From Nilaparvata lugens (Eukaryota; Arthropoda; Insecta; Hemiptera; Delphacidae), in contig NC_052511.1 in NCBI RefSeq assembly GCF_014356525.2, positions 47,549,682-47,613,681 of the forward strand: 64,000 nt of DNA, read 5' to 3'. The notes below the pieces were generated by a model that was not told where the DNA came from, did no database searches, and worked only from the letters and a program-made list of their open reading frames with translations. The translations under genes were made by a program, and so were the position numbers. This document shows positions 1 through 45,500 of this stretch, piece after piece. Each line of letters begins with the position of its first letter. Positions within the stretch are counted from its first letter, which is position 1.

Positions 1-1745
1 TGAGCAGAAAAATTAAAACTACTATCACTGCAACTATCAGCTGAAAATGAGTGATACTGACAGCTTAAAGTGAATCTCCCCATAGTGAGTTTTACATCAT
101 ACTGTCAGTATTAGTGACTACTGCAATGAATAATAGCTACAAAGTACTCTACTAAATCTACCTGGTTTTCTAGAAGTTTCCATCTACTATATTCTATTTA
201 CAATATTATAGTACTATACGATAAAAAGATCATCACGTCTACTGTCTTTTAGAAGCTTTCATTCACAATATTCCATTTACAAATATTTACAACGTGTCCG
301 ATAAATCATAGCTACAAACTACAAATTACTGTAGGCCACCTAATAAATAATGTATTACTATAGATTAAACTGTTGCCTTTGACATTTACATAACAGGTCT
401 GCAACTTTGAGTCACTCACTTATTTTAACTGGGCTTCAATATCATAGTTGATTCAACTACTCACTGTCAGTATTAGTTAAATGGGAACCTATTGATGTTG
501 TTCATAAGGAACGCTGCCAGATTGAAATGATTCTCACAACGGCTCATTCAGCTTCAATCTGTCAGTATCGTTTAAATGTGCAGCATTAATGTAATTGCAT
601 TAGGAATTCTGACAGAATTAAGTGAATCTCAATGTATTCCATTCAATTATTAAATGTCAGTATTGGTTGAACGGCAAGTATTGGTGTCAGTTTATGAGGA
701 ATTCTGTCAGTTTGAAATGAAACTCACCACAGTTCATTCAACTTTTTAAAGGAAACCGGTTCGATCGCTAAAGACAAGTCATGCTTCAATTAATCCGTCA
801 GTAATTTCCACAAAAGATTTATCGAATTTCAAGTTTTTGCTGAGGTTTTTGAGGCCACAATGTTGCATTCGATAGTATTTGGTTACAATGGAGAAATCTA
901 TCGACAGTCTAGTTTGGTTTGGAAAATGATATCGATGGAATATGAAACTTGAAATTGAAATTGATTGTTAACCTAGATTGGTTTTGGAAGTGATAAGATA
1001 GGGTATCATTATCGAAGGAATAAGATATTTATTGATAAGTTATTGGCTCAGGTAGAACAAAACAAAATAGTAGATAACAACCACAATAAATTATATACAA
1101 GTTAATTTTATCATTTTGGTTCGGTTGCACAAAAGCCTATTGGATTGTAACCGTGATTAAATGTCACGAAAACCAATCAGAGAAGCCTTATTTTCAAGAA
1201 CGTATTCTCTGATTAGTTCTCCTAGCATTCGATTTGATCTTGATTGAAATTTAACAGGCTTTTGTGCTTCCGGTCCTAGTACTTCAATGATATTATATCG
1301 ACATATTACTTTCTGTTGTTAGATTATCATAGATTATTTATTATAGATTATTGTATTATCCATAGAAAATATATTAGACCCACCTGCCACACTCTTGGAA
1401 TATTCCGTGAGATATCGATGTGATCCCGTCGTTCAATCTCATCGTTGGTTTCTTTTTCAACCATAGGATGATGTTTTCTATTAAGATAAAGGCTAGGAAG
1501 TAGGGCCATGCCTGCAAAATAATGCAAATTACACATTGAAATAATTCTTCAATTGGTGGATTAAAACGTGAGGCTGTGGCAAAAATTATGAAAATATTGT
1601 TAATGCAAAGCCATTCTGTTGCTTCAGCCAATGAGAAGGTGTTATAATGTAGGCGGGGACTCCAACTGACTAGCTCGCTTGTGATTGGTTGAAGCTGTAT
1701 GACGTAGTAGGTCTCGTAGATTGAGTTGAAGTATTGACATCTATC
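1..1745 (-). repeat. Tandem copy I of the exon 2-intron 2 block
   Basis: It matches 4208-5905 almost base for base, including the start TGAGCAGAAAA, the MITE at 1125-1272 and exon 2. The copies diverge after GTAGATTGA (1730 and 5910). Copy II repeatedly lacks single bases that are present in copy I. Confidence 0.92.
1384..1511 (-). CDS. AGMO: AGMO exon 2, inverted copy I (intact)
   Basis: 128 bases identical to the main exon 2, with acceptor and donor preserved. No neighbouring exon 3 lies in this contig within reach, so by itself it is a gene fragment, or part of a second allele whose remainder is not assembled here. Confidence 0.85.
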
Positions 1746-1999
1746 ATCTACAAATAGAAAGAAAGGCTTCAAAACGAATTTGATAATAATAATTAATTCA
1801 TTAGCATTTGAATAATTGCAATATATCAGTAATTTCTATCTGTAGAAAGAAAGGCTTTCCGTTTGAAAGTTGTGATACAAGTTTCTCTCTGATACAAATA
1901 TTCTACATTGGAATTGCGTTCTGAAATTTATTACAGATTTATATAATGCAATAAACATGGAATAAATTGATAACCGCTATTTACTGAAATTGAACAGTT

Positions 2000-2530
2000 C
2001 CCTTTTGAATTGATATAATTATTTATTAATTTTTGAGAAAACATAACAACAGGTCAATGTAAACTTACTGAGCGCGAGGTCTATTGTTCACAGAACTACT
2101 AGTATTAAATGTATAATGAAATAAACATGGATAACGGCTATATTCACAGAAGTTGAATAATTTCTACTCTCCTTCTACGGGTTAATAGTTAAACATGGGT
2201 AAATAGTTAAACATTTTAAACATGGTTAATAGTTAAACATGGATAACGGCTATAGTCACAGAAGTTGAATAATTTCGACTCTCCTTCTATGGGTTAATAG
2301 TTGAACATGGGTAAATAGTTGAACATTTTAAACATGGTTAATAGTTAAACATGGATAACGGCTATAGTCACAGAAGTTGAATAATTTCGACTCTCCTTCT
2401 ATGGGTTAATAGTTAAACATGGGTAAATAGTTGAACTTTTTAAACATGGTTAATAGTTGAACATGCAATAAACATGGATAACGGCTATTCAGAGAAGTTG
2501 AATAATTCCTTCACTCTTTCTACGGGTTAA
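2000..2530. repeat. Minisatellite, inverted counterpart of 32030-32730
   Basis: Repeats of GGTTAATAGTTAAACATGG with ATGGATAACGGCTAT, about 120 bases per unit, 4 units. It starts with a fragment of Helitron A (ending CTAG at 2099-2102). Confidence 0.85.
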
Positions 2531-2534
2531 TAGT

Positions 2535-3310
2535 GCAACTCCGCGGACGATCCGGACCCCAGGAGGACAGCTAGTGCCCGCCAGTAGGACTTAGGAAAGT
2601 CTAGAGTGCTGGCCGCCGCAGCGTGCTGGTCCAGTGCGGGATCGCAAGAGGACGTCTAGAAGGCAGGAAAAGCCTTTCCCGCAACTCCGCGGACGATCCG
2701 GTCCCCAGGAGGACAGCTAGTGCCCGGCCAGTAGGACTTAGGAGAGTCCAGAGTGCTGGCCGCCACAGCGTGCTGGTCCAGTGCGGGATCGCAAGAAGGC
2801 GTCTAGGAAGGCCAGGAAAGGCCTTTCCCGCAACTCCGCGGCCGATCCGGACCCCGGGAGGACAGCCAGTGCCCGGCCAGTAGGACTTAGGAAAGTCTAG
2901 AGTACTGGCCGCCGCAGCGCACTCGTCTAGTGCGGGATCACAAGAGGACCTCTGGGAAGGCCAGGGAAAGCCTTTACCAGGGCCCCGCAACCAACCCGGA
3001 CCCCGGGAAGACACCCGGTGCCCGAGGACTAGGACTTAGTCCCGACACGAAGCCCTTTCTCACGACTAACACTGCAAGGTTCCTGTTCCCTTCTTTCCGC
3101 GACCACCCTGTTTGGCAGTGCGAAAGCACGGCCCCTCTTTCCTAAAAGAGGGAAACATTCCTCCAAAGCACTCAAAGCCCTGTTTCAACCCCCAACCCGA
3201 GCGAGGGTGGTTGACGGACGCCCCACCGAGACTCCCGTCCCCTGCCGCGGCCCTCCCCAGTCGCCGACTGAGCTTAGCCGGCCCAGAGCGACACTGGAAT
3301 TCTGATAGAG
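2535..3310. repeat. GC-rich tandem repeat and attached GC-rich sequence
   Basis: Three full units of 146-149 bases start at 2535, 2681 and 2830 with GCAACTCCGCGG; a diverged fourth starts near 2986. A non-repeated GC-rich stretch follows and ends in a (TA)n run at 3340-3360. Composition is far from that of the surroundings. The long open frames inside are products of high GC and repetition. Absent from the main AGMO copy. Confidence 0.85.
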
Positions 3311-4207
3311 ACAGGTGTGGGCAAAATCTACTCAGAATATATATATATATATATATATCATCTACTTTCTTTGAAGATAGGATCAATCAGACTATAGAAT
3401 TATTCATAATCAATCAGCTGACAAGTGGATTATTCATTGCATGCATTCAGAGATGTCTGGCACACATGCATTACATAGATGTGTCTATTTCTATAAGGTA
3501 GGGTTTCAATATTTTTTATGATGAGTGCCCATCAGTATCAATATTCTCATATTTGAAAAACATATTTAATAGGTGATTGAAAATAAATAAAAAATGATTA
3601 AATGAACTAAATGATGCTGAAAAAATTATAATATTCTTGATTGAAAAAAAAATCAAAGACTTCTCTTTAAGGTCTTTGAAAAAATTTAAATAGGAGAAAT
3701 ATCTTTATCAGATGGAAGATTATCAACGAACTGGATAAATAAATTATCATAGGGATACAAATCAAACGTGATGATTAGAGTTTATTAACATAAGGGAGTT
3801 TTTGATCTTCGAGAAAACAAATAATAGTTTTTAAGAGTAAATTATGATTCAGTGTGAATTGTAATTCAACTGAATCAACTAGAACGGTGATATCAGATAC
3901 TTGTGGATGAGAAAACTGCGTGAAGTCTATACTGTTCACAGAACTGCTAGTATACTATACGTTAATAATTATTCATCCACTCTTTTAAAAGCTTCCATTC
4001 ACAATAATCTATTGACAATATTTTACTACTGCAATTTATTTATTATTTATTCTTATGGCTTTTATCGGCAGAGAGATCCTTTCGGATGTTCTGCCTTGTC
4101 GTATTACCCAATGTATTTCCTATCAACACTCAAGTTTATAGGTTATGTATTGGGTTCTTCATGTTTTTCTCACTAAAAATTTGCACTTTCACTTCCTGAG
4201 TCAATTT
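3311..4207. other. AT-rich spacer with a Helitron A end
   Basis: No gene seen. A diverged copy of the Helitron A 3' end occupies about 3895-3953 (CTGTTCACAGAACTGCTAG). A short stretch near 3380-3410 (CAGACTATAGAATTATTCAT) also matches Helitron A interior sequence. Confidence 0.55.
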
Positions 4208-5905
4208 TGAGCAGAAAATTAAACTACTATCACTGCAACTATCAGCTGAAAATGAGTGATACTGACAGCTTAAAGTGAATCCCCCATAGTGAGTTTTACA
4301 TCATACTGTCAGTATTAGTGACTACTGCAATGAATAATAGCTACAAAGTACTCTACTAAATCTACCTGGTTTTCTAGAATTTCCATCTACTATATTCTAT
4401 TTACAATATTATAGTACTATACGATAAAAAGATCATCACGTCTACTGTCTTTTAGAAGCTTTCATTCACAATATTCCATTTACAAATATTTACAACGTGT
4501 CCGATAAATCATAGCTACAAACTACAAATTACTGTAGGCCACCTAATAAATAATGTATTACTATAGATTAAACTGTTGCCTTTGACATTTACATAACAGG
4601 TCTGCAACTTTGAGTCACTGGGCTTCAATATCATAGTTGATTCAACTTCTCACTGTCAGTATTGGTTAAATGGGAATCCTATTGATGTTGTTCGTAGTAA
4701 ACGCTGCCAGATTGAAATAATTCTCACAACGGCTCATTCAGCTTCAATCTGTCAGTATCGTTTAAATGTGCAGCATTAATGTAATTGCATTAGGAATTCT
4801 GACAGAATTAAGTGAATCTCAATGTATTCCATTCAATTATTAAATGTCAGTATTGGTTGAACGGCAAGTATTGGTGTCAGTTTATGAGGAATTCTGTCAG
4901 TTTGAAATGGAACTCGGCACAGTTCATTCAACTTTTTAAAGGAAACCGGTTCGATCGCTGAAGACAAGTCATGCTTCAATTAATCCGTCAGTAATTTCCA
5001 CAAAAGATTTATCAAATTTCAAGTTTTTGCTGAGGTTTTCGAGGCCACAATGTTGCATTCGATAGTATTTGGTTACAATGGAGAAATCTATCGACAGTCT
5101 AGTTTGGTTTGGAAAATGATATCGATGAAATATGAAACTTGAAATTGAAATTGATTGTTACTCTAGTTTGGTTTTGGAAGTGATAAGATAGGGTATCATT
5201 ATCGAAGGAATAAGATATTTATTGATAAGTTATTGGCTCAGGTAGAACAAAACAAAATAGTAGATAACAACTACAATAAATTATATACAGTTTATTTTAT
5301 CATTTTGGTTCGGTTGCACAAAAGCCTATTAGATTGTAACCGTGATTAAATGCCACGAAAACCATCAGAGAAGCCTTATTTTCAAGAACGTATTCTCTGA
5401 TTAGTTTTCCTAGCATTCGATTTGATCTTGATTGAAATTTAACAGGCTTTTGTGCTTCCGGTCCTAGTACTTCAATGATATTATATCGACATATTACTTT
5501 CTGTTTTAGATTATCATAGATTATTTATTATAGATTATTGTATTATCCATAGAAAATATATTAGACCCACCTGCCACACTCTTGGAATATTCCGTGAGAT
5601 ATCGATGTGATCCCGTCGTTCAATCTCATCGTGTTTTCTTTTTCAACCATAGGATGATGTTTTCTATTAAGATAAAGGCTAGGAAGTAGGGCCATGCCTG
5701 CAAAATAATGCAAATTACACATTGAAATAATTCTTCAATTGGTGGATTAAAACGTGAGGCTGTGGCAAAAATTATGAAATATTGTTAATGCAAAGCCTTC
5801 TGTTGCTTCAGCCAATGAGAAGGTTTTATAATGTAGGCGGGGACTCCACCTGACTAGCTCGCTTGTGATTGGTTGAAGCTGTATGACGTAGTAGGTCTCG
5901 TAGAT
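4208..5905 (-). repeat. Tandem copy II of the exon 2-intron 2 block
   Basis: Partner of 1-1745. Differences are chiefly one-base deletions (AAAAATT to AAAATT, CCAATC to CCATC), indicating poorer sequence or younger decay in this copy. Confidence 0.92.
5571..5697 (-). pseudogene. AGMO: AGMO exon 2, inverted copy II (frameshifted)
   Basis: 127 bases, one fewer than copy I. The loss is in the stretch encoding KKKPT (near 5633-5637), which breaks the frame. Splice sites are intact. Surrounding sequence shows many further single-base deletions relative to copy I. Confidence 0.85.
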
Positions 5906-6269
5906 TGAATTGAAATCGGCCATTGAGGGGGCAACCTATAGATTATTACATACCAATGCCTTTGTAATCTATAGTATTACGAATATATAGATATAATATC
6001 TCGTGCTAAAATACCCCAATGGCGGTGTTCAATTTCAAGCAAGAGCTATCATTGGGAAGACATAGGCATTGTGGGTCTATATCTCTTTAAAGTCTTTGGG
6101 TTGGCTCAGGTCTGGTGTCAGAGTTTTCAGGTCGCAACTGACCAATTTCAGGGCCTCTGGCATGATCTATTCTCCATGAAGTGTATACTTTACTCGTGTT
6201 CTCAACAACTTGATCACTATATTCGTTCATTTCTTCAATGTTGTTTTCCATCACGAACTGCTTATTATA

Positions 6270-6930
6270 AAAACACTTTTTGCTATTAAAAAGAACGACT
6301 AGCAGTCAGAATATAATTGACCGAGCGAAGTGAGGTCTAAGATTCAAGTCGACGGTTTGGCATTTCTCTTAATGTTTGAATGTTTATATGTTGCGCATTA
6401 ACGGCGAAACGCGGTAATAGATTTTCATGAAATTTGACAGGTATGTTCCTATTTAAATTGCGCGTCGACGTATATACAAGGTTTTTGGAAATTTTGCTTT
6501 CAAGGATAATATAAAAGGAAAAAGGAGCCTCTTTCATACGCCAATATAAGAGTAAAAATCAGACTATAGAACTATTCATCATAAATCAGCTGTTTAGAGG
6601 ACTATAAAACTACCCGTTCAAAAACATCGAACATCTTGAAAATGTATCTTTCCTTCAACGTTGTAGACAGTTGCTGCCAGACCTGATAACAGCGCTCACA
6701 CTCACATTCCGGGACGACACGTCACGGTACGATAGGACAGGAAGCTCTATGTTTATTAAGGATTATTTCTAGACATTTTAAATTGATAATTATTTATCAA
6801 TTTTTGAGAAAACATAACAACAGGTCAATGTAACTTACTGAGCGCGAGGTCTACTGTTCACAGAACTACTAGTAACAGTCAGCAGTCATCTGACTGCTAG
6901 TCGTTCTTTTTAATAGCAAAAAGCCATTCA
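6270..6930 (+). mobile_element. Helitron A copy 1 within a 34-base inverted repeat
   Basis: Helitron A runs from about 6317 (TTGACCGAGCGAAGTGAGG) to CTAG at 6869-6872, followed by T. It is flanked by near-perfect inverted arms (TTTTTGCTATTAAAAAGAAC at 6277 and its complement ending near 6926), so it lies inside, or is part of, a larger foldback. No coding capacity. Confidence 0.72.
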
Positions 6931-7046
6931 TTCCATTCATGTTTTTTCCCAATTATTTTATGCTATCAAATGATATAACTTTCTCCATACAGTAAATTCA
7001 TTTATTATTTGTCTGGATTATTTTCTGCTATAGATTGTCGTCTCAC

Positions 7047-7247
7047 CTGCCTGAAAAACGGCGGGACATCCTTATAGTTCTTGAACGTAGTAGTGGCTGG
7101 ATCGACTATATAGAAGAGCCTACCGCTCCCGTCAGCCATCAGAGCGCAGGATGTTATTGACGCTGCTCAATCTCCTGCTTCAGAAAGAGGCCACCGAGAA
7201 TTGCCCACGTCAGCTGATTCGTCCACGTCGCACGATTCGCACAGCAT
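7047..7247 (-). pseudogene. AGMO: AGMO exon 1, inverted decayed copy
   Basis: 201 bases against 207 in the main exon. I count six separate single-base losses, mostly in runs of identical bases (TTT to TT, TT to T, GGG to GG), plus a few substitutions such as CCACAG to CTATAA. The donor is CAG/GTGAGA. The frame is destroyed. The pattern fits unpolished long-read sequence as well as genuine decay. Confidence 0.85.
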
Positions 7248-7249
7248 TT

Positions 7250-7830
7250 TAGAGCCGGGGGTCTAGAGATTTGCTGGAAAGAGAATTGAACGAAAATTGA
7301 AGTTTCTGAAAATTTATCTTTTAAATCTATGATACTACTGTATAACAAAAACACTACACCCTGATAAACTCTCTCATTTTTCAGGTACTGCCTACATTAG
7401 AAGATTTTCACAGCATTTTACAGCCGGGTGTGTACAGAATTGCTGAAAAGAGAATTGAACAAAAATTGAAGTTTCCGAAAATTTATCTATTAATCTATGA
7501 TACTACTGTATAACAAAAGCACTACACCCTGATGAACTCTCTCATTTTTTAGGTACTGCCCACATCAGGAGATTCACACAGCATTTTACAGCCGGGGGTC
7601 TACAGAATTGCTGGATAGGGAATTGAACAAAAATTGAAGTTACCAAAAATTACTCTATTAATCTTTGATACTACTGTATATTAAAAACACTACACCCTGA
7701 TAAACTCTCTCATTTTTTAGGTACTGTCCACTTTAGAAGATTCACACAGCATTTTACAGCGGGGGGGGGTCTACAGATTTGCTGGCAAGAAAATTGGAAA
7801 AAATTTAAGTTTCTGAAAGTATATCTAAAA
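7250..7830 (-). repeat. Start-codon tandem array, inverted short version
   Basis: Three units upstream of the exon 1 copy (7409, 7578, 7746 for ACAGCATTTTACAGC), spaced about 168 bases. The main copy has six units upstream of exon 1. Confidence 0.85.
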
Positions 7831-7852
7831 CGATACTATAACAAAAACACTA

Positions 7853-8812
7853 ATATCAGGGACCGAGCTTCGCTCTGATGTACAAATGCATAAAAAATGT
7901 ATTACGAAAGAAGAAATTATAATAACTACAGAAATGCTCTATCTAATCACAGTAAATTAATTCCCAGAAGAATGCAAAATTTTCCCTCACAAACAGTGGC
8001 GTATATAGAAGAATATTTTGAGTGGGCTGAACTACCGGGGAGCCTGGGGGGTATGGAATACCCCCAGTAGAAGGGGGGTCCGGGGGTACTCCCCGGGAAA
8101 ATTTTGCCAATTTAAGTCTTGAAAACACAGGTTTTTGGCATGTGTAAACGCTAAAATGGAAAGAATGAAAATCACTCTTTCGGAGAGATTTTTTAGTTTT
8201 CCTTCTTTTCGAGCAGGTTTCACTTTTCCATTTTAGCGTTATTATAGTTTATATAGAAGACCTGTACCTTTGTATATATTTTTGTATAAAATTAATTCAA
8301 AACTTAAGTGTCTGCTAGTTTTCAGTTGTTAAAATAAGAAAAATAATAGAGGCTATAAAGTCCTATTTAAAATCTTTGGTTTAAAATAGTTCTTATACAA
8401 AGAAATATATTGTCCTATGTATCTAAAACACAACACACCACAATATTATAATTTTGAAGCTAATAAATGTTGGACTATATACTATATTTATTTTAGCAAT
8501 TGAATTGTATTTTAGTCCAACCTCTGAAAAAAATAAATATTGAATATTGTTAGGTATCATAATGTATTCTTAAAATTCCACTATAAACTATAATACTAAT
8601 GTAGTCGGAAGTATAGAAGCACAGCTTATTGAAAATAAAAATAAATTATCGTATATAAGTTATAATATTTTTTTGTGTTTCAAATTAAGGGGGGGGGGCT
8701 CGAATTTCGTGAGAATCGTTAGAGCCGTTTTCGAGATCCGGTGAAATACAAACATATAAACATCTAAACATCCAAACATATAAACAGGAGTTGCTCGTTT
8801 AATAGTATAGGA
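7853..8812 (-). mobile_element. Helitron D copy 1, with empty site known
   Basis: On the minus strand it starts TCCTATACTATTAAACGAGC and ends CGAAGCTCGGTCCCTGATAT. The second copy of this locus at 29218-29240 has the uninterrupted sequence CCTCACTATAGTGTTTTTG, so the boundaries and an A-T target are read directly. A G-rich stretch lies at 8030-8095. No transposase gene. Confidence 0.85.
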
Positions 8813-8899
8813 TAGTGAGGACCACTTTATAATAGCAGTAGAGAAAGATAGGAGAAAAGTGAAGCCGATTCTATGTCTTGCCACTGCCCTCTATAAAGG
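8813..8899. repeat. MITE B remnant next to the gap
   Basis: Matches 29140-29226 in reverse (TAGTGAGGACCACTTTATAA to CTCTATAAAGGA). This is the inner and outer end sequence of MITE B with the middle deleted. Confidence 0.7.
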
Positions 8900-8900
8900 A

Positions 8901-9000
8901 NNNNNNNNNNNNNNNNNNNNNNNNNNNNNNNNNNNNNNNNNNNNNNNNNNNNNNNNNNNNNNNNNNNNNNNNNNNNNNNNNNNNNNNNNNNNNNNNNNNN
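8901..9000. other. Scaffold gap (100 N)
   Basis: Exactly 100 N bases, a conventional gap of unknown size. The order and orientation of 1-8900 relative to the rest are therefore inferred by scaffolding and not read through. Confidence 0.99.
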
Positions 9001-29137: not shown

Positions 29138-29226
29138 TATCCTTTATAGAGGGCAGTGGCAAGACAGAGAATCGGTTTCACTGTATCTTTCTCTACTGCT
29201 ATTATAGAGTGGTTCTCACTATAGTG
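29138..29226. repeat. MITE B remnant
   Basis: CCTTTATAGAGGGCAGTGGC to GAGTGGTTCTCACTATAG. It marks the outer limit of homology with the inverted contig, and its right edge is the empty site of Helitron D copy 1. Confidence 0.7.
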
Positions 29227-30310
29227 TTTTTGTTATAGTGACAAACTTTTGGAGACTTTAATTTTTGTTCAATTCTCTTTCCAGCAAATCTGTAGCACCC
29301 CCGCTGTAAAATGCTGTGGAAATCTTCTGATGTAGGCAGTACCTAAGAAATGAGAGAGTTCATCAGGGTGATGTTTTTGTTATACAGTGGTATCATAGAT
29401 TAATAGATCAATTTTCAGAAACTTCAATTTCTGTTCAATTCTCTTTCCAGCAAATCTGTAGACCCCCGGCTGTAAAATGCTGTGCGAATTTTCTGATGTA
29501 GGCAGTACCTAAAAAATGAGAGAGTTCATCAGGGTGTAGTGTTTTTGTTATACATTAGTATCATAGATTAATAGATAAATTTTTGGAAACTTCAATTTTC
29601 GTTCAATTCTCTTTCCAGCAATTCTGTAGACCCCCGGCTGTAAAATGCTGTGAAAATCTTCTAATGTAGGCAGTACCTAAAAAATGAGAGAGTTCATCAG
29701 AGGGTAATGTTTTTGTTATACAGTGGTATCATAGATTAATAGATAATTTTCGGAAACTTCAATTTTCGTTCAATTCTCTTTTCAGCAATTCTGTACACCC
29801 CCGGCTGTAAAATGCTGTGAAAATCTTCTAATGTAGGCAGTACCTGAGAGAGTTTATCAGGGTGTAGTGCTTTTGTTATACAGTAGTATCATAGATTAAT
29901 AGATAAATTTTCGGAAACTTCAATTTTCGTTCAATTCTCTTTTCAGCAATTCTGTAGACCCCCGGCTGTAAAATGCTGTGAAAATCTCCTAATGTAGGTA
30001 GTACCTGAAAAATGAGAGAGTTCATCAGGGTGTAATGTTTTTGTTATACAGTGGTATCATAGATTAATAGATCAATTTTCGGAAACTTCAATTTCTGTTC
30101 AATTATCTTTCCAGCAATTCTGTAGACCCCCGGCTGTAAAATGCTGTGTGAATCTTCTAATGTGGGCAGTACCTGGAAAATGAGAGAGTTTATTAGGGTG
30201 TAGTGTTTTTGTTATAGAGTAGTATCATAGATTTAAAAGATAAATTTTCGGAAACTTCAATTTTTTTTCAATTTTCGTTTCCAGCAATTCTGTAGACCCC
30301 CAGCTGTAAA
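29227..30310 (+). repeat. Tandem array carrying the AGMO start-codon sequence
   Basis: GCTGTAAAATGCTGTG recurs at 29303, 29469, 29637, 29803, 29964, 30132 and 30303, spacings 161-171. Each unit has TTTCCAGCAATTCTGTAGAC (acceptor-like), then an ATG, then CAGTACCT and GAGAGAGTTCATCAGGG. The last occurrence continues into exon 1. Confidence 0.93.
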
Positions 30311-30517
30311 ATGCTGTGCGAATCGTGCGACGTGGACGAATCAGCTGACGTGGGCAATTTCTCGGTGGCCTTCTTTCTGAAGCAGGAGATTGAGCATGCG
30401 TCCAATAACATCCTGCGCTCTGATTGGCTGACGGGAGCGGGTAGGCTCTTCTATATAGTCGATCCAGCCACTACTACGTTCAAGAACCACAGGGATGTCC
30501 CGCCGTTTTTCAGGCAG
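30285..30517 (+). CDS. AGMO: AGMO exon 1 (first recognised coding exon)
   Basis: Coding from ATG at 30311 to the donor CAG/GTAAGA after 30517, 69 codons, ending in phase 0 with VPPFFRQ. The end matches the family pattern in which an aromatic-rich TTTFKNHRDVPPFFRQ stretch leads into the first membrane helix. A good acceptor (pyrimidines then CCAG) lies at 30281-30284, so this may be an internal exon preceded by an untranslated exon that I cannot place. The ATG is the first one in frame, and the sequence just before it is the last unit of a tandem array (29226-30310). Confidence 0.82.
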
Positions 30518-33500
30518 GTAAGACGACATTTATAGCAGAAAATAATCCAGACAAATAATAATTGAATCGGTGTGAAGAGAAAGGGAACATGTCAAAAATC
30601 AGAATTTTTCAGGGGAGAGAAAAAACTAAATACAGATAATTTCATATATTGATAATTTCAAGATTGTTTTTGTCATTAGGGTGCAAACTCTTTTAAGACA
30701 ACAATTTTAATCCAGTACTTATATAAGATTCACCCCTTAAAATTGAGTTTTTTGTTAACTTCCTTTTACTCATAATGATATTATAAATTATCACCTTCAA
30801 CTTTTACAATAAACACCTCAACCGAAAGCAATCTAACCTCAAAGCAATGCGTGAATCAAACGTAACCTAACAATAGCATAAAAATCACAACTGACAAAAA
30901 GCTGATTTACGAATGTTCGGCGTTGAAAGGAGACATGTGTGTCATGACTAGTTCCCTTTCACTCCAGTACAGCAAAAATACGATATCTGTTTCTCGTATA
31001 AAGAGAATGCTGACATGTTCCCTTTCAACTCCAATCGATGTATCCCACAGTAAACAATGTCAAATGTTGAAATGATCAACCATAAAAAATGAAAAATTTT
31101 GACATGTTCCCTTTCTCCTCAGGCCTATTCAATTAGATATCTTTACTCTATGGAGAAATTTATATCATTTGATAGCAGAAAATAATAATTGAGAAAAAAA
31201 TTGAATGAATAGCATATACACTTCATGGAGAATAGATCATGTCAGAGGCCCTGAAATTGATCAGTTGCGACCTGAAAACTCTGACACCAGACCTGAGCCA
31301 GCCAGGTCACTCGATATTATTATTATAGACAATAGAGAAAATATTATAGAAATAAATATTATTTTTCAATTTTTAATATTAGTTTTTTGAGCAGAAGTAT
31401 TAGTACAGTAAATGTGGCGAATGCTGACTTTTGGTTATATTATATGATTTCATTTATGGCGATGTGTAAAGAGATATATTTACAGAGGAAATTACTGAGA
31501 TGTTGCAATTATTCAATGCTAATGAATTAATTTATAATTAAACGAAAATCCAAATTAAATGCTGTGAATCACCCCGAAGACTTCTGCTACTGCAATATTG
31601 ACAACAGGGTAAAAAGCTAGATGGAAATTCGATGAACGCTTCATTCAAAATTATTTTTCAGCCCGGGATGACAAATATTTTTGAATTGTAGTGTAGTGCT
31701 CATCGAATTTCCATCTAGCTGTTTACCCTGTTGTCAATATTTGTAGTAGCAGAAGTCTTCAGGGTGAATTACAGCATTTAATTTGGATCTTAGTTTAATA
31801 ATAATAATTATTGAGAAATATTTCTTTGTATTCTTACATTGTTATATTTTTAGCATTTGCTAAATTTAGCTAATAACTTGTTATCGTTGTTGTGTTTTTC
31901 TTGTAATATTGTACTGTTCTTCATGAGAAACAATAAATGCTATTCTATTCTAAAAAAATACTTTACTCACTTCTAATAAAGAATAGTCTAGGTCTAGTCT
32001 ACTCTATGAAGGAGAGTAGAACCTATCAGAAGTAAGAGAGATGAACTATTAACCCGTAGAAAGAGGGAAGGAATTATTCAACTTCTCTGAATAGCCGTTA
32101 TCCATGTTTATTGCATGTTCAACTATTAACCATGTTTAAAGAGTTCAACTATTTACCCATGTTCAACTATTAACCCATAGAAGGAGAGTCGAAATTATTC
32201 AACTTCTGTGACTATAGCCGTTATCCATGTTTGACTATTAACCATGTTTAAAATGTTCAACTATTTACCCATGTTTAACTATTATCCCATGGAAGGAGAG
32301 TAGGAACTATTCAACTTCTGTGAATAGCCGTTATCCATGTTTATTTCATGTTTAAGTATTAACCATGTTAAACCATGTTTAAAATGTTCAACTATTTACC
32401 CATGTTCAACTATTAACCCATAGAAGGAGAGGAGACATTATTCAGCTTCTGTGACTATAGCCGTTATCCATGTTTATTGCATGTTTAACTATTAACCATG
32501 TTTAAAATGTTCAACTGTTTACCCATGTTTAACTATTAACCTGTAGAAGGAGAGTCGAAATTATTCAGCTTCTGTGACTATAGCCGTTATCCATGTTTAT
32601 TGCATGTTTAACTATTAACCATGTTTAAAATGTTCAACTATTTATCCATGTTTAACTACTTTAGTATTAACCCATAGAAATTATTCAACTTCTGTGACTA
32701 TAGCCGTCATCCATGTTTATTGCATTATACATTTAATATTATAGTTTTCAAAATTTGAAAGAATTCGTAGAATGAAGGAGGGAACTGTTCAAATTCGGTA
32801 AATAGCCGTTAAATTTATTCCATTTTCATCGTATTATACAGAGTGAGTCATATGTATGGGAACCCTTCAATAAGTTGGAGACTGTTGTAGATATAATACT
32901 GTAACTTTCAGGATAAGTTATTGGTCAAATACTCTATCTTTTGACGTACACTGAATTTAACCCCTCATAAGGGGGTGACTTAGGGGTTGTAACTCGAATA
33001 TTTTATATATAAACACCCATTGTGTGGTACATCATTTTAAAGGCCTTTTCAAAACGAGAAAGATGGCATCACCAAAATGTTCTATGAAACTTGTATCCGA
33101 AATGGCGGCTGATTTTCAAAGAAATAATTGATAAATTTTAATCATCCCCTCATGAGGGGTTGAAATTCAGTTGTATGTCAAAAGGTAAAGTATTTGACCA
33201 ATAACTTATCCTGAAAGTGACAGTATTATATCTACAACAGTCTCCAACTTATTGAAGGGTTCCCCATACATATGCCTCACTCTGTATAAATCTGTAATAA
33301 ATTTCAGAACGCAATTCCATTGTAGAATATTTGTATCAGAGAGAAACTTGTATCACAACTTTTAAACGCCTTTCTTTCTATTGGTGAACGCCTTTCTTTT
33401 AAACGCCTTTCAACTCAATCTGCGTCTGCGAGACCTACTACGTCATACAGCTTCGACCAATCACAAGCGAGCTAGTCAGTTGGAGTCCCCGCCTACATTA

Positions 33501-36500
33501 TAACACCTTCTCATTGGCTGATGCAACAAAATGGCTTCGCATTAACAATATTTTCATAATTTTTGCCGCAACCTCACGTTTTAATCCGCCAATTAAAGAA
33601 TGTTTTCATTTTTTCAATGTGTAATTTGCATTATTTTACAGGCATGGCCCTACTTCCTAGCCTTTATCTTAATAGAAAACATCATCCTATGGTTGAAAAA
33701 GAAACCAACGATGAGATTGAACGACGGGATCACATCGATATCTCACGGAATATTCCAAGAGTGTGGCAGGTGGGTTTAATCTATTTCCTATGAATAATCT
33801 ATGATAATCTAACAACAGGAAGTAATATGTCAATATAATATCATTGAAGTACTAGGACCGGAAACACAAAAGCCTGTTAAATTTCAATCAAGATCAGATC
33901 GAATGCTAGGAGAACTAATCAGAGAATACGTTCTTGAAAATAAGGCTTCTCTGATTGGTTTTCATGGCATTTAATCACGGTTACAATCTAATAGGCTTTT
34001 ATGCAACCGAACCAAAATGATAAAATAAACTGTATATAATTTATTGTAATTATTATCTACTATTTTGTTTTGTTCTACCTGAACCAATAACTTATCAATA
34101 AATATATTATTCCTTCGATAATGATACCCTATCTTATCACTTCCAAAACCAAACTAGATCAACAATTAATTTCAATTTCAAGTTTCATATTTCATCGATA
34201 TCATTTCCCAAACCAAACTAGACTGTCGATAGATTTCTCCATTGTAACCAAATACTCTCAAATGCAACATTGTGGCCTCGAAAACCTCAGCAAAAACTTG
34301 AAATTTGATAAATCTTTTGTGGAAATTACTGACGGATTAATTGTTGAGCATGACTTGTCTTCAGCGATCGAACCGGTTTCCTTTAAAAAGTTGAATGAAC
34401 TGTGGTGAGTTTCATTTCAAACTGACAGAATTCCTCATAGACTAACACCAATACTTGCCGTTCAACCAATACTGACAGTTGATAATTGAATGAAATACAT
34501 TGAGATTCACTTAATTCTGTCAGAATTCCTAATGCAGTTACACCAATGCTGCACATTTAACCGATACTGACAGTATGAAGCTGAATGAGCCGTTGTGAGA
34601 ATCATTTCAATCTGGCAGCGTTTACTATAAACAACATCAATAGGTTCCCATTTAACTAATACTGACAGTGTGAAGCTGAATCATCTATGATATTGAAGCC
34701 CAGTTAAAATAAGTGAATGACTCAAAGTTGCAGACCTGTTATGTAAATGTCAAAGGCAACAGTTTAATCTATAGTAACAAATTATTATTAGGTGGCCTAC
34801 AGTAATTTGTAGTTTGTAGCTATGATTTATCGGACACGTTGTAAATATTTGTCAATTGAATATTGTGAATGAAAGCTTCTAAAAGACCGGATAAATAATT
34901 ATTTATCGTATAGTAACCCTACTATTATAATTATTATAAATGGGATAAAGTGGATGTAAACTCGTAGAAAACCAGGTAGATTTAGTACAGTACTTTGTAG
35001 CCATTATTCATTGCAGTAGTAAAATATTGTCAATGAAATATTGTGAATGGAAGCTTCTAGAAGTCCGGATAGATGATTATTTATCGTATAGTACTATAAT
35101 ATTGTAAATGGAATATAGTAGATGGAAACTTCTAGAAAACCAGGTAGATTTAGTACAGTACTTTGTAGCCATTATTCATATTGCAGTAGTAAAATATTGT
35201 TAATGAAATATATTGTGAATGAAAGCTTCTAAAAGACAGTAGACGTGATGATGTTTTTATCGTATATAGTACTATAATATTGTAAATTGAATTTTATAGT
35301 AGATGGAAACTCCTAGAAGACCATTTAGATTAGTACAGTACCGTAACTTGTTTCCATGATTAATCACCCTTGTAGTAGGAAATTGTCAAGGAAAATTTGT
35401 GAATGGAAGCTTCTGAAAGTCCGGATAGATTATTATTTGCCGTATAGTAAGTTACTATAATAGTTTGAATGAAATATAGTACATGGAAATTTCTAGAAGA
35501 CTATTAATCTTCTAGTAGATTAGCTTACCGATTGATCATATTAAAGTGAAATCATTGGCGATGGAGAATATTATGATGAATGAAAACTTCTAGATTTTAG
35601 AAGACCTGGTAGATTATTTATTGTATAATGAACACACTTTTTCTATATATTTTCACACGACATGCAGTCAAATATCTAAGTAAATAATCAAATCCGTTTA
35701 CTTACTGACTGTAGTAGTTTCGACCAGCTAGCGATCATTTCCAACAGTTGACTGTTTTGACTGTTGAAAATGATGATCGCTAGCTGGTCAAAAGTACTAT
35801 AGTCATTAAGTAAAACATTTTGATTATTTACTTAAATATTTACTGCATGTCGTGTGAAATACATAGGAGAAAGTGTGTTAATACATTGCAGCTCGGAATG
35901 GAACAAGAAACCATCACCATGTATAATGAAATTATTGTAAATGATACAGATTGAATGAAAGCTTCTGGAAGATGAGGTAGATTAGCCTACTGCTTATAGT
36001 AACTGATAGATAATGAACTGGTGGATTATAAAGTATTGATTGTAAAGTGAGAGTATGACTCTTACAAGATCAGATGAGAACTTGATCAGCATTTTTGAAA
36101 GAAAGATTCTCCGCAGAATTTTTGGAGGAGTGCTGTTGGATGGAGTGTGGTGCAGAAGAAAGAATCTTGATCTTTACAACATGATTGTATGCGGTGGCTC
36201 CTATCCGAGTAGGTAGGCTCAGGTGGGCAGGCCATGTTGTAAGAGCTGATGAGTCATTTCCACCAAAAAAGATAATGGCTTACAACATGGAAGGTAGAAG
36301 ACCTCCTGGTAGACCAAGGTTGAGGTGGATGGATGCAGTTGCCGGAGATGCAAGAGTTGTTGGGGTCAGGAATTGGAGGCGTGCTGCCATGGATAGAGTA
36401 GAATGGTGGCAAATGTTAGAGGAGGACAAGATCCGCTCTGGATTGTTGAGCCAATAATGATGATGATGATGATGATGAAAGAAAGAGTATTGTCAATGGA

Positions 36501-39500
36501 ACAAGGTTGATGGTTGAATGGATGCTTAATCTTATAGTCAAACTATTGTCAATAAAACATGATAAATAAATGCTTCTGGAAAATTATAAATTCAATCATG
36601 CAACACGCAAATAATAACTTATACGACAACACATATCACCTATAGTGGGGTGTATATTATAATATATCCATTGAATTATCTATGCCTATTAAGAAATTAT
36701 TCAATGCATAAAAACTTCTTTGTTTTGATTTTATTAAATTTTATAGTACCTATTCAAATTTGTATTGTAATATTGTTTCTGATGAATAAACTTTTCTTGA
36801 AAATTTGAATTTGAATCTTAACTGAAACTACTGGGAGACTATTGTTTCAAAATGATATCAATGACAATAATTGGAAAATGGTTAATACATTATGTTAATG
36901 TAAATGAAAACTTCTACATTTTAGAAGACCTGTTAAATTATTTATTGTATAGTGGAAATATTGTGAATGAAACAGGTTGAATGAAAGCTTCTAGAGATAT
37001 GAGGTATCATGTTAATTATTCAATATCGGGGCACCGAGCTTCGCTCGTTATTTTTATTTATAGATATACAGAACACAATTATCTCTAAAATTATCGTGTT
37101 TATATTTTACAGCTGGCTGTACGTCAGCTTATGAATTTCGGGGATGTGATATTTTGATTTTTCACATACTCACTAGCTCACTCACTTTTTTACTATCCAT
37201 AGCTGTTTCAGCCAAGGATGAATTATCCTTTCAATGTCGTTCAGCGAGTTTTCCCAAGGATGAGACCTAGTGCAATCGAATTTTTATATCATACACCTAC
37301 TATGTTCCAAATTTCGTGAAAATTGTCAAAGCCGTTTCCGAGATCCGTTGAACATAAATATATACCCATTTAACCAGATAACCAGATAAACAGATAACCA
37401 GATAACCACATAATCATATAAATATATACAGAAACTGCTCGCCTAATATAATATGATGAATTTGGAACTGGACTACTTAATTTTATGAAGGAACAGTTTT
37501 GGACTAGAATCTAAAATCCTACCCCAGTTTCCATTCGATTTGTATAAGTTTTATGTAGAGATGTTTTTATATGTATTTTTGATTACAGGTTATTGTTCAG
37601 AGGAGCCGAGAGCGCCCTCTATGTATATATTTACGAGAACTATAGACTGATGGAGCTCCCCTGGGATTCTCCTATGACTTGGTACATAGCGGCCATTGCT
37701 GTCGACTTCTGCTATTATTGGGTACACCGAGCCAGCCATGGTGAGATAGTGCTTCAATAATACTATAATATAATACGTTATGTATAATTGGATAGTACTT
37801 ATTCAAATTTATTGCTTCAATAAAATTATATTTGAATTATATTCATAGTACCTAATATTTGAGGATTGATTCATCAGAAATGACTTCATTTGAGTGTATT
37901 GTAACTGTCACCTGGTCATATGTGGAAATATATATGAATCATATATTTATCTCATAAAGATCAGGATTTTAGAGTTTTTGAATTAAAAGTTAAATGAACA
38001 GTATTTTGTCTTTGAACAATCTTTGTCATCGACAGGAAAAATGTTTATTCATATGTTGTCAATATTAACGTTAGGTTCTCTTGTTTCTAATAACAAACGT
38101 GCCGTTTGTGCGACAGATAAAAATATGTACTTGAAATGGCCTTCATGTTTGGCATTGACTGAACTTATATTAGGTTAATACCCAAAATTTAGCTTTTGGG
38201 GCAGAGCTCGTTCGTTAGGACTGTGAGTAAAGTCCGGCTGATCCAGTGAAAAGGCTAGACTTTGTTTCGTTTTATTAACAGTTATTCTGTCACATATCGG
38301 CAGTTTAAAAATAATTGTATTATTAAGGGAGACGGGTTCTGAACCTATTCATTGGTTCAGTTAATTTTTGTTTTCTAAAATACTAACTGTAAAGTCGTGA
38401 CTAAACCAGTAAATGCCAAAGGGGGAAGCCATCTTCAAAAGGTAGGTGACTACTGGATAAGATCATTGTTCTTAATTTTCATAACCACAAAGATTGAATC
38501 ATCTTAAGCAGCAGCGAGTAGTTTCCCCATTAAATTTTTTTGTCAAATTAATGTCAATTAATGGTGATTTGAGTGTGATTTTTTGTTTTTTATTCTGTTT
38601 TCAACCATAAAAATTTAAAATTCTTAGTTTTCGTGTTTTTTTTTTTAGTAAGAATGGATTAAATTTTGGAAAAGTGAAACCATAACCCTATTTCGGACTT
38701 TTAAAATGTTATCTAAATTTGGGAGAGAAATAGTTCAAGGAGTATCCTTAGTTTCTCTCCCAATCAGTGCTACTTTGTAAAAATTATGAATAAATGAATA
38801 AATATATAAATAAATTCAATTTTAATATTGTGTTTGTTTATTTATTTATATTTTATCTTCTTTTGGAATGGAAAAAATTGATATTTAGCATTTTAAACCG
38901 AAAGATAACAATTAAATAACGTTCTAGTATTTCTGTTCTCTCTTTTTGTTATCATAGTTCTTCCCCTCCTTACATAATCGGTAGTCCTTCCCGCCTTACA
39001 TAACAAATGTATTCCATTGTGTTTCTCTTTTCTACTCTATGTTTTATTTTAGAAATCCATATATTTTGGGCACAACACCAAGTCCATCACAGCTCTGAAG
39101 ACTACAATCTAACCGTGGGACTAAGGCAGTCTGTGCTTCAGGGATGGTGTGGATTTGTAAGTTCATAAAATATTTTATTTATCACAAAATTACAATAATT
39201 AAAATTACCCATATGCAAGCTCTTTTAATCCTATTAATATAAATATTATTCGATATTCAATAATTGAAATTTCTATAGTGATATGGGACCAGCGTAAAAC
39301 TGTAGAATGGAAGATATGAGTTTTAATGTTTCTTAAAAATTTTGAGATTCAATTAGTGGAAGGAGAATTTCAAGTTTTGAATTCTCATACTGAAGATGAC
39401 AGCATAGGTGTTGAAACATGAAAAATTTCAATAAATTCGTGGTATTTTCAGACAATATTCTAGTGTTCTATAAAGGAACAATAGTTTATTGTAATAAACA

Positions 39501-42500
39501 GATAGTTTTTTTTATATAGGCTGCATATAGTGCGGTCCACGTTATAATGGCAGAAGAGATTGATTGATTGATTGAGTACTTTATTTATGTAGATTACAAT
39601 ATATACTGGCTTATACACTTATATACAATAGCTTACAATACAGCAAAATTATAGATGAATTTACATAATATAGACTAAGAAAATAATTATTGAACTGTAT
39701 ATGATATGAAAAAGGAATTTGTAACATAATAACTATAGATAATAATCATATTGTTATGCATCTACATAAATTGGCGGAGCTTTGGACATATCAATGTCCA
39801 TTCTTCGGAAAGAATATTAAAAATATCCTCCCCACTAACTCTCTACCAAAGATAGGAGAAAAACGTTGCCGATCCTTTGTCTTCTCAATGCCTTCTATAG
39901 ACGGTAGCTGATACAGGTTTATTGATGTGATATTAACGGTTCATTCTCGTTTAAAATAATCAATTTTATTTTATTAAGCAAGCAGCAGTTACATTTTTCA
40001 ATAATCCCATGATGAATTTTCATAATTAAGATGAAATATTTTGTTAATTAGTTATTAATTCTACATTGTTACAAGACTATCTGAAACAGAGCAAAGAGAG
40101 AAAGAGATAGCGCTATCCGCTTTGTTGAATGATAGACAAGGATAGCAATACCATTGCTAATCAAACACTGCCATTATAACGTGGACCTCACTATAGGCAT
40201 GTTTGTATTTGTCATTTACTTCTGTGTTCTACTTTCATTCATTCATTCATTCATTTATTGTATAAAATACTATAATCATAATACAATTATGACATTGGAG
40301 GAAAAACTAGGCTGAGCCTGTACTATTTCTCTCCAAAAATTTTGATAAAATGTTAATGTTGTTCAAAAGATAAGGTTATGTAATCACACACTGCTTCGTC
40401 ACTTGATTTTCGGTCCAGGAATGATGATTTAAAATTTTGAATTTTGAAGGTTGATTTTATACTCTAAATAAATCACAGAATGTATCACAATAAATTAAAA
40501 ACTTGAGAAAAAATTTAATTTCTACTTTTAACTGATAAAGTTTTTTCATGTTCTACAGAGGTTAATATTTAGAAGAATATAATTTTCTAGAACAAAATTA
40601 TATTCTTCTAAATATTAACCTCTATTAGAAGAAATATAATGTAATATTATTCTATATCTCTATGAATTTAGAGAGTTCACTATTTTAAGCTTCTCTCATA
40701 AAATTTGAAATACTTGGAACATGAGAAGCTGAAACTAACTCCCGTATTCAAAGTAAAATCCAAGACTATTTCAAATTAAAATCAGTGACCCACATTTTTT
40801 TAATATTGTTGTTGTTCATCTGAGATTAGTATCCAAGCTGAACTTGTTGTTTGATTATCTACTTCCTTATTGACAGCTCAAAACTGAGGAAACAGATTTG
40901 TTTGTTTTTTTAATGGCTTTGATAAATTACCAAAATGTAGGTCATTGCTATTGAGATATTATCATTGATAAGTTTCACTGTCAATGAAACACTATAAGCT
41001 TTGAATACCGACACGAAGTTTCCAAGCATTCTTATAGAAAAAATCTCGTTGAAAATTGTTATAAAATCTATTAGTATTGACTACCGTACTGTTACTCCTT
41101 CATTTATATTAAACAATTGACTATTGACAAGCCTAATAAACTGTCGAAAATAATTAATTTTAATATGTTCAAATCCCGGTTTACTATTTATTTTAATATT
41201 TCACTTCCCTTATGATGAATGAATAAACAACAGCCTGTATTGTTATAATAGGTACACTTGCAATAAATTGCAATTATTGATATTGATTGATGATCATCTT
41301 ATATTGATAAAAAAGCATCATTCTATCTATGTGAATATTCATATCTCTATGAATTCACATTACTCTAGAATACTATAATATTATATTTTTGGGGTTGTAT
41401 TTAAAGATGGAAATTACTGAGATATTGAATCTATTAAAATGCTAATAAATAAATAATTATTATTATTATTCATTTATTTATTTACATTGTTTACAAATAC
41501 TTAACATGAGGATAGGCACAACAGGCTCATGCCCAAAACTGTCCCATTTCTAATTTAAACTATACTGTCCAAATCAAATTGTGTTATCATCTATCATCAA
41601 ATTAATCATCCATTTTGTACATATACAATTCAATGCAATATATGCAAAATTCATCAACACTTAGAAGCTTTAAATATGATTCAATATTATTATTAAACGA
41701 AATTCCAAATTAAATGCTGTAAATCACCCCGAAGACTTCTGCTACAGCAAATATTGACAAAACGGTAAACAGCCATACGGAAATTGAATAGTAGCGCTCA
41801 TCGAATTTTAATCTAGATGTTTACCCTAGTTGTTGATATTTGGAGTAGCAGAAGTCTTCGGGGTGAATTACAGCATTTAATTGGGATTTTCTTTCAATAA
41901 TAATTACTGATCCATATTTGAAGCTTCTTAAGTTTTGATGAATATTGCATTGAATTGTATATGTACAAAATGGATGATTAATTTGATGATAGATGATAAC
42001 ACAATGAAGTAGGTACCATATCATATCTTAGAATAAAAATAGCACTGTTCTTTCGTAGCGTATTATATCATTGGAAAGATTGATTAAAATAGTCAACTCT
42101 ATAGGTATATTCTGTTTTGTAATTGAAATAGTTACTCAAGATGAAATGAAATTATTATAGAGTATTATTATTATATATTAACCTTTTTTGGACAACTTCT
42201 ATCCAAATTTAGGAGAGGAACAGTTGTGGGCTTTAAGCTTGTTGTTCCTTCCCCTATTATTCATAATTATTGAGAATTATATATTGTATCTATATCAATG
42301 TACTAGCCGTTAGGCTCGCTTCGCTCGCCATATCCGTCTAGCCAGGGGGCTCCGCCCCTGGACCCCCGACTGGATCGTCCAAGAATGAGATCAGCAGGCT
42401 CGCTTCGCTCGCGTGCATTTTTCATTTTTAGCATATTATATTAGGACAATCCAGTCGGGGGTCCAGACTAAACGTCTGGCTAAACGGATATGGCGAGCGA

Positions 42501-45500
42501 AGCGAGCCTGACGGCTAGTAATATAATATTCCCAGGATTGAAGTAGCAGTGCCCAATCAATTTTTCCGCGATAAATGCATTTAAATCTTCAACTTGGTGC
42601 CAACTTAACAAAATCAACTAAACTTAATGCCAACCTGACAAAATTATTAATTTAGTTGCCAGTTAACAACTGTTTCGAAGAGGTACTCTATCTAGATTGT
42701 AGTTCTATAGTAACATATGATATGGAAATTTCAATTATAATTAAGAGATAGGGAGAAGAAGAATATACATGCTAAAAGACAACATTTAAACCCTTAAAAA
42801 CAACCCTTAGAGTTAAAATATTGCCAAAAGATTTCTTAGTGCGCCTCTAAAGGGCCAACTGAACATACCTACCAAATTTGAACGTTTTGGTCCGGTAGAT
42901 TTTTAGTTATGCGAGTGAGTGAGTGAGTGAGTGAGTGAGTGAGTGAGTGAGTCAGTCAGTGAGTGCCATTTCGCTTTTATATATATATATATATAATATA
43001 TATATATAATATTATATATATAAATGTATATTATATAATATTATATATATATATTATATATATATATATTATATATATATATAATATATATATATATATA
43101 TTATATATAATTAATTATTAATGTTCCCAGGGTGCTGGAGAGTTTTTACATAAATAAGTGACCTACAAAGGTCATTATTATATTATTATTTCGTGTGTTA
43201 TTGGAATTTAGTTGATTTACTTTTGATGTTATATACACTTCTATTTCATACTTTAATATTGATCAAAACTATTATTATAATCGATTTTATTATTAATTTT
43301 TCAGGCGTTCTACCTACCCATGGCCCTGTTTGTCCCACCAGCGCAGTTCCTAACCCACCAACAGTTCAACCTCATGTACCAGTTCTGGATCCACACAGAA
43401 ACTGTCAAATCTTTGGGACCTCTAGAATGGGTTCTCAACACACCTAAACACCACAGACTGCATCATGGTAAGCTGCTAATAGATAAAAATGAACTGGATG
43501 TAGGCTATAGAAATTCAGCCTTTAGAGAAATCGGAGGGAGATTTAGAAAACAAATAATTGTTGAAATGCTGGAAAAATGTAGTAAACGTACAACCTAACA
43601 AAATACAAAACACACCATTTAAGATTGGTCACACCACACCGATTAATCAAGACATGATCAGACAAGTTTAGTCACAATACTCCACATTGCTGCTTATGAC
43701 GCAACACCCACTGATTAGTCATTGCAATTAGACATGAATCCATATTTTTATTTATTATTTTACAAAGGCAATTCCATTCAATTATATTACCTAGATAATA
43801 TACCTAGATTATATTACCTTTATATTCAATTATTTTACCTAGAAGTATTTTAAGTCATGATGATGATATGAATGATAATACAATGGAGGTAGAGTTATGA
43901 ATGAATAAAAATTATAGGTTATGCTATCCGCTTGAATTGATTAGAGTCCACTTTTCAGTCCAGAAATAAATAAGCTAGAAATTTTGAATTTGATTTGATT
44001 AAAAACCTAATAAAATAGAATGATTACATTCAATAAACTCTTAGAACTTGAAAATATTGAGTTATTAATAGGCAACTATGTGAAGTATTGTGACTAAACG
44101 TGACTAGTCTTGTCTTGACTAATCGGTGTGTGACCAGCCTAATGTTTCAAGCAAAGACTTGCAGACAATTATTATTTATGTGAATAAACAATAATTGTCT
44201 GCAACAGAATTATTCTGTTCACGCACTGACTGGAGTACTTTCGGACGGCAAGAGTTCATTCTCAACAGTTCAAATTGCTCCAGTGAGTAAGAGAACAAAA
44301 TTTTTCTCTACATAAAATAATTTACTGCATGTCGTCGGAATAATGTGTCAATACATAGCAGTTTGGAATGAATCTAGAAACCATCATATTTAGAAAACAC
44401 AAATTTTCCATGCATTCAATAAACGGATTCAATAAACTCGTAAGATTGGAACTTGATTTTTTTAAAGAAAAAGACGCACTGCATGGGGAGGAAATACTTC
44501 ACAATGCTGCCTTTAGAATTACAGTCAACAAAGAACATCAAAAAATTTAGTATAAAACTCAAGGAGTATTTAATAGCATTGTCTCTGTACACCCTACAAG
44601 AGTTTACAGATCATACTATGAGTTTATGACTATTGTTTATCAATTTTTGCTATATCTATAGGAGGTTGATAGGACTATTTTCTACTACCTACTTTGTATG
44701 TTATGTTTGTATTATATTGACGCTGCTCCTGATTATGAATGAAGAATTGATGTGTGCGACAGTTCAGTCCAGTTGAGTTAGAAAAATAATCATATAAAAT
44801 ATATTCCAGAGATTTTTCAGTTTGGTGTAAGGGTAAGCATTCCTGACCGGCAATGGAGGTACTGGGCTCGTTTCCCGGGCTGACAAATAATTTTTTAATA
44901 GTAGCGCTCATCGAATTTCCATCTAGCTGTTCACCCTGTTGTCAATATTTGCAGTAGCAGAAGTCTTCGGGGTGAATATTACAGAATTTAATTGGATTTT
45001 CGTTTAATAATATAAAATATTTCACACCAACCAAATTTTAAATTGTTTCTAGGCTATATACCTACTTTAATATCTTCAATCATATTATATCAAAAGAATT
45101 TTAAAGTATTCATAGGATATAATTGTTTTCAGCGAACCCTTTCTTCAATGTTTTGAAGATGAAATTATCATATCATTGAAGAAGGTCCAGATTGTAACGG
45201 TTCTATTTCTCAATTTGTCCATACTACAGTTGTATTTCACCTTCTTTTACACAGAATTTCCAGTATTTGATTTGATTAAAAAAATACATTTTTTTAAAAG
45301 TACCTAGCTTATTGCAACTTTCATCCTCAGCATTGCTATGAGTGAGGAAGTGATAATATCACTAGTAGTTTAATTTAATTAATCAAAAATTAAAAAACAA
45401 TTTATCATTTTAAAATGTCTAGAAAAAATCCTAAATAATATAGGTAGCTCTATGTCCTATCTTACCGTGACTTGTCGTCCCGGAACGGAGTGTGAGCGCT

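Follow-up and report, generated by a model that had tools for sequence, protein, structure and literature searches.

On scaffold C8 of the brown planthopper Nilaparvata lugens (52,941,447 bases, 52.9 Mb), two versions of the 5' region of AGMO face each other across an assembly gap. Does this arrangement reflect a real inverted duplication, or was a second haplotype joined wrongly during scaffolding? The question was raised by an earlier reading of a single stretch of 64,000 nucleotides, C8:47549682-47613681, which we call the window and whose positions are used throughout. That reading (the original prediction) preferred the second explanation.

Contigs and gaps around the locus

We examined a region of 324 kb, which comprises the window, 240 kb to its left and 20 kb to its right, in an assembly that totals 1,085,386,871 bases (1,085 Mb) in 6,870 contigs. 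Negative coordinates denote positions to the left of the window start. The region contains five gaps and six contigs or contig parts, the outermost two being partial because the region ends within them. The contigs, and the two gaps that bound contig A, are as follows.

-239999 to -196264, c0, partial (edge of the examined 324 kb)
-196163 to -58201, c1
-53100 to -18700, c2
-18699 to -18600, gap of 100 N at the far end of contig A
-18599 to 8900, contig A, 27,500 bp, minus strand, second version of the 5' half of AGMO (1..8900 within the window)
8901 to 9000, scaffold gap of 100 N between contigs A and B
9001 to 64000, contig B, 55,000 bp
66501 to 84000, c5, partial (edge of the examined 324 kb)

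The predicted gap at 8901-9000 is present and is the only one in the window; both ends of contig A are thus 100-N gaps. The contig to the left of this gap had been taken to be 8.9 kb long, a size that merely reflects the window edge, which cuts through contig A. The lengths of contigs A and B are exactly round, and the next gap to the right of the window also has a round size, exactly 2,500 N. These round sizes suggest bin-sized cuts made by a program during scaffolding or correction, and the gap-bounded ends of the two contigs are therefore no proof of natural contig ends.

Inverted homology between contigs A and B

Contig A aligns inside contig B as one colinear, inverted chain of 21 blocks, which runs from -18506/51627 to 8900/29140 (contig A/contig B). 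The corresponding part of contig B is given below.

29140..51651, plus strand, part of contig B matched by contig A from one end to the other, inverted; the last part, 51628-51651, is a short match only

The chain has 14,947 aligned columns with 91.2% identity and a divergence of 5.0% when only mismatches are counted. At 117-1730, for example, contig A is 91.7% identical to 35020-33409 of contig B, and at 6996-7852 it is 89.1% identical to 30567-29705. Divergence along the chain is uneven, with between 0 and 17 mismatches in stretches of 150 bp. The whole sequence left of the gap had been described as homologous, which proved too broad, as the chain takes in 14,709 of the 27,500 bases of contig A; outside it lie, among other sequence, repeats that resemble transposons, a GC-rich block and a duplication internal to the contig. 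Contig A is nonetheless found within a longer homologous contig, in the manner of a haplotig.

As a control, we scored 30 chains, namely the 15 pairs of the six contigs in both orientations, with c0 and c5 represented by their partial sequences. The A-B chain on the minus strand reached 20,435 and the c1-c2 chain on the plus strand 15,842, whereas the next best score was 5,319 (c1-B, minus strand). The inverted homology reported for the left contig is therefore far above background. Among near-unique matches, a count that left out matches shorter than 150 bp and repeated stretches, eight of the nine A-B matches were in the minus orientation and 15 of the 17 c1-c2 matches in the plus orientation. 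Together, the 30-chain control and the near-unique matches rule out chance or transposons alone as the source of the A-B homology.

At the far end of contig A, a 29-base match (84% identity, E 0.23 when taken alone) extends the homology to position 51651 of contig B. Both contigs read TTGTTAACAG and then GTGA, the acceptor of AGMO exon 9, and contig A stops one base further. The 89 bp with which contig A ends next to contig B (8812-8900) match contig B at 29140-29222 with 87.6% identity. A match of the last bases to 29140-29226 had been pointed out previously; it exists over nearly that range, although the sequence is a dispersed repeat, for which the 324 kb contain 64 matches (E <= 1e-3), self included. 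By itself, the terminal match would be weak evidence. Among the other copies of the repeat, that at 29140 matches best, and it occupies the position expected from the chain. The earlier preference for wrong joining relied on homology ending exactly at the gap, an argument that carries less weight than it first did, because contig A ends in a repeat and is exactly 27,500 bp long. On the other side, homology starts 20 kb inside contig B and not at the gap.

Contigs A and B adjoin on one scaffold, and their divergence is high for alleles. Both observations would suit a real inverted segmental duplication, that is, two facing copies of AGMO, both under selection, with a repeat-rich junction that was left unassembled. 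However, neither junction of such a duplication is present in continuous sequence, the ends of contig A being gaps, and contig A breaks off five bases into exon 9, whereas contig B runs on.

AGMO exons and repeats in the two contigs

The joined exon peptides score 96 bits with the Pfam FA_hydroxylase family (PF04116), whose cut-off is 31 (E 3.2e-27), and the protein that they match best is named "alkylglycerol monooxygenase-like [Nilaparvata lugens]", which confirms that the gene is AGMO. Probes for exons 1-6 match both contigs; exon 8 is also found in both, and exon 9 in contig B only. Judged by the C-terminal half of the protein, exons 8 and 9 presumably belong to AGMO. The left contig had been said to hold exons 1 and 2; it does, but not these alone, since contig A carries exons 1-6 and 8, with exon 2 present twice. 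Exon 7 is not among the exons identified. The exons with coordinates are listed below.

7047..7130, minus strand, contig A, coding end of exon 1, 28 aa, 89% identical to contig B
5567..5697, minus strand, contig A, second copy of exon 2, frameshifted
1380..1511, minus strand, contig A, exon 2, intact, 0 of 132 positions different from contig B
30311..30517, plus strand, contig B, exon 1, open frame MLCESC...PPFFRQ followed by GTAAG, with a putative start codon
33642..33773, plus strand, contig B, exon 2
37587..37739, plus strand, contig B, exon 3
39052..39156, plus strand, contig B, exon 4
43305..43469, plus strand, contig B, core of exon 5, 3' boundary provisional
46750..46881, plus strand, contig B, exon 6; compared with -14419..-14550 of contig A, 9 of 132 positions differ, all synonymously
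49167..49235, plus strand, contig B, core of exon 8; counterpart in contig A at -16832..-16900
51648..51758, plus strand, contig B, part of exon 9, start set from the acceptor AG

Over exons 2-6 and 8 (756 bp), the two contigs differ at 19 positions and their translations are identical, as expected of two alleles. In exons 1-6, 19 synonymous differences give a rough dS of 0.12, and the six non-synonymous differences all fall in exon 1. The 5.0% mismatches, this dS value and the nine differences in exon 6 are high for alleles and count against the view that contig A is a second haplotype. Exon 6 also stands above the average of its own block (3.5%). The retention of coding sequence in both copies, with 19 synonymous and no amino-acid changes in the 756 bp, is a point in favour of an inverted duplication as well. 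As a property of the exon sequences, it is compatible with a pair of working duplicates as well as with alleles of one working gene, and argues only against a dead copy.

Exon 1 is less well preserved. In contig A it contains apparent 1-bp deletions that break the frame open in contig B, which speaks against an inverted duplication with two selected copies. We also considered that the two versions of exon 1 use different start codons and rejected this idea, as it is unreliable given these apparent deletions. In the exon-1 block (6996-7233), there are six one-base deletions in contig A and one in contig B, and within the internal duplication of contig A there are 23 in the second copy versus four in the first. 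Summed over 11 A-B blocks, the numbers are 46 for contig A and 36 for contig B, and single blocks have 7 versus 9, 10 versus 9, and 2 versus 7 (contig A first). Where contig A has an excess, redundant sequence seems to have been poorly polished; the excess is not general.

The repeats in question are the following.

7234..7827, minus strand, 168-bp tandem array of contig A, 3.5 copies
29243..30318, plus strand, 168-bp tandem array of contig B, 6.5 copies
-1680..1730 (first copy) and 2535..5914 (second copy), internal tandem duplication of contig A, 97.5% identical
2535..3039 and -2773..-1174, GC-rich 149-bp tandem repeats, within the 324 kb in contig A only

The difference in copy number of the 168-bp array, 6.5 versus 3.5, was counted in favour of alleles, which often differ in this way. 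The last unit of the array overlaps exon 1 close to where the start codon probably lies. The GC-rich block (2535-3300 and -2773..-1174) has 58-62% GC amid AT-rich surroundings; searches of the window and of L011-L012 for a ribosomal origin gave no Rfam match at the gathering threshold, and spacers may lie outside Rfam.

Contig A has sequence that is absent from contig B, namely the GC-rich repeats and the internal tandem duplication, which might be taken to mean that the duplication exists on one haplotype only, or that contig A is a paralogue from elsewhere misplaced here. Insertions of this kind, however, are ordinary differences between haplotypes as well, and a divergence of 5% is not recent. 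In addition, when the whole assembly was searched with a 1,681 bp probe covering exons 3-4, at least two full-length copies were found, contigs A and B being the only ones among the 40 of 4,300 candidates that were scored; the other matches listed were partial and over repeats. Taken together, these observations make a duplication confined to one haplotype, or a misplaced paralogue, highly improbable.

A second redundant pair and comparison with known systems

The region contains one more case of redundancy. Positions -87735..-58201 of c1 (C8:47461946-47491480) overlap positions -53098..-34768 of c2 (C8:47496583-47514913) in the same orientation, across a gap of 5,100 N. The overlap is a dovetail, which reaches the last base of c1, stops 2 bases short of the start of c2 and has a mismatch divergence of 4.2%. 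No comparable chain was detected in the other 13 contig pairs of the 324 kb. Thus, redundant sequence flanks two of the five gaps of the region, in one case contained and in the other overlapping. The c1-c2 pair is likely an unremoved heterozygous overlap, although it might instead be a genuine duplication. The possibility that c2 continues haplotype A was rejected, as c2 chains with contig B and c5 only at background level.

Having neighbours that dovetail at a similar divergence is a further point against a real inverted duplication at AGMO, which we now regard as quite unlikely. The containment of contig A, the gaps on both its sides, its colinearity with contig B, the conservation of exons, the two full-length copies found of the exon 3-4 region and the case of c1-c2 together favour a misplaced haplotype. 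Very probably, contig A is an allele of the AGMO region from the second haplotype, misplaced in the assembly and inverted beside contig B. On this point the original prediction is supported by the gaps that bound contig A, its containment, the similar behaviour of c1-c2 and the published heterozygosity of a N. lugens strain (PMC4269174). The passages on heterozygosity in that 2014 genome paper report a level above expectation despite 13 generations of inbreeding, in a strain that may differ from that of the present assembly, and warn that alleles may assemble as two copies.

We propose the following scenario, in which we infer that the two contigs are allelic, by what method and at which step they were scaffolded, and that the orientation of contig A is arbitrary. 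Two haplotypes that are approximately 5% apart in mismatches, with many insertions in addition, would have led the assembler to make contig A a separate contig, and this redundant contig may then have escaped removal at every step. Long-range data would have put the two alleles at the same chromosomal position, and contig A would have been scaffolded beside contig B, its orientation within the scaffold being a guess. The k-mer genome size given in PMC4269174 for N. lugens, ~1.2 Gb, is larger than the 1,085 Mb assembled, and total size is therefore no sign of redundancy, although of the other assemblies mentioned in a review (PMC11507613), one has 1,087 Mb and one is smaller, at 955 Mb.

The placement of contig A also bears on annotation. 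A public AGMO-like protein of N. lugens (P0001) is 228 aa long and starts with a methionine encoded in exon 2. All 18 residues at its C-terminal end agree with contig A, and 17 of these 18 with contig B, which indicates that the gene model was probably built on contig A and is truncated; judged by these residues, the model probably sits on a truncated redundant contig. Of the 120 proteins listed out of 7,937, P0001 (a cluster of 5 sequences) alone carries the name N. lugens, and some of the 120 are without a name. The apparent inverted duplication is most likely an assembly artefact, and this assembly could mislead gene-copy counts, duplication studies and gene-knockdown designs. The data suggest that the region has strongly diverged haplotypes. 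That it holds a real head-to-head AGMO duplication, or two anciently diverged haplotypes, with exons 2-6 and 8 identical at the protein level, seems unlikely.

How does this locus compare with known systems? According to the sections of the purge_dups paper on haplotypic duplication (PMC7203741), haplotigs and overlaps persist in the assemblies of highly heterozygous genomes, as those of most insects are, and haplotypic duplications are of two kinds, contained and overlapping. False duplications are characterized in PMC9516828 by assembly gaps within the pair and by more erroneous k-mers; here, the duplicated pair on one scaffold is separated by the gap at 8901-9000, and the far end of contig A is a gap too. 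Like the contained haplotigs and heterotype false duplications treated in these parts of the two papers, contig A is contained, separated from its partner by a gap on one scaffold, and divergent yet colinear, and, as with heterotype false duplications, a gene model is probably affected. Unlike the heterotype false duplications described there, contig A is inverted relative to its partner, contig B; inverted pairs do not figure in the passages of PMC9516828 on false duplication, and the main text of that paper contains neither "inverted" nor "orientation". As for the gene, the exons of both copies encode AGMO, of the fatty acid hydroxylase family PF04116, with nothing unusual in the part read, and exon 1 differs between the two copies. 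Finally, c1-c2 resembles the heterozygous overlap of contig ends outlined in PMC7203741, with a similar dovetail and a similar divergence, whereas contig A is contained rather than dovetailed.
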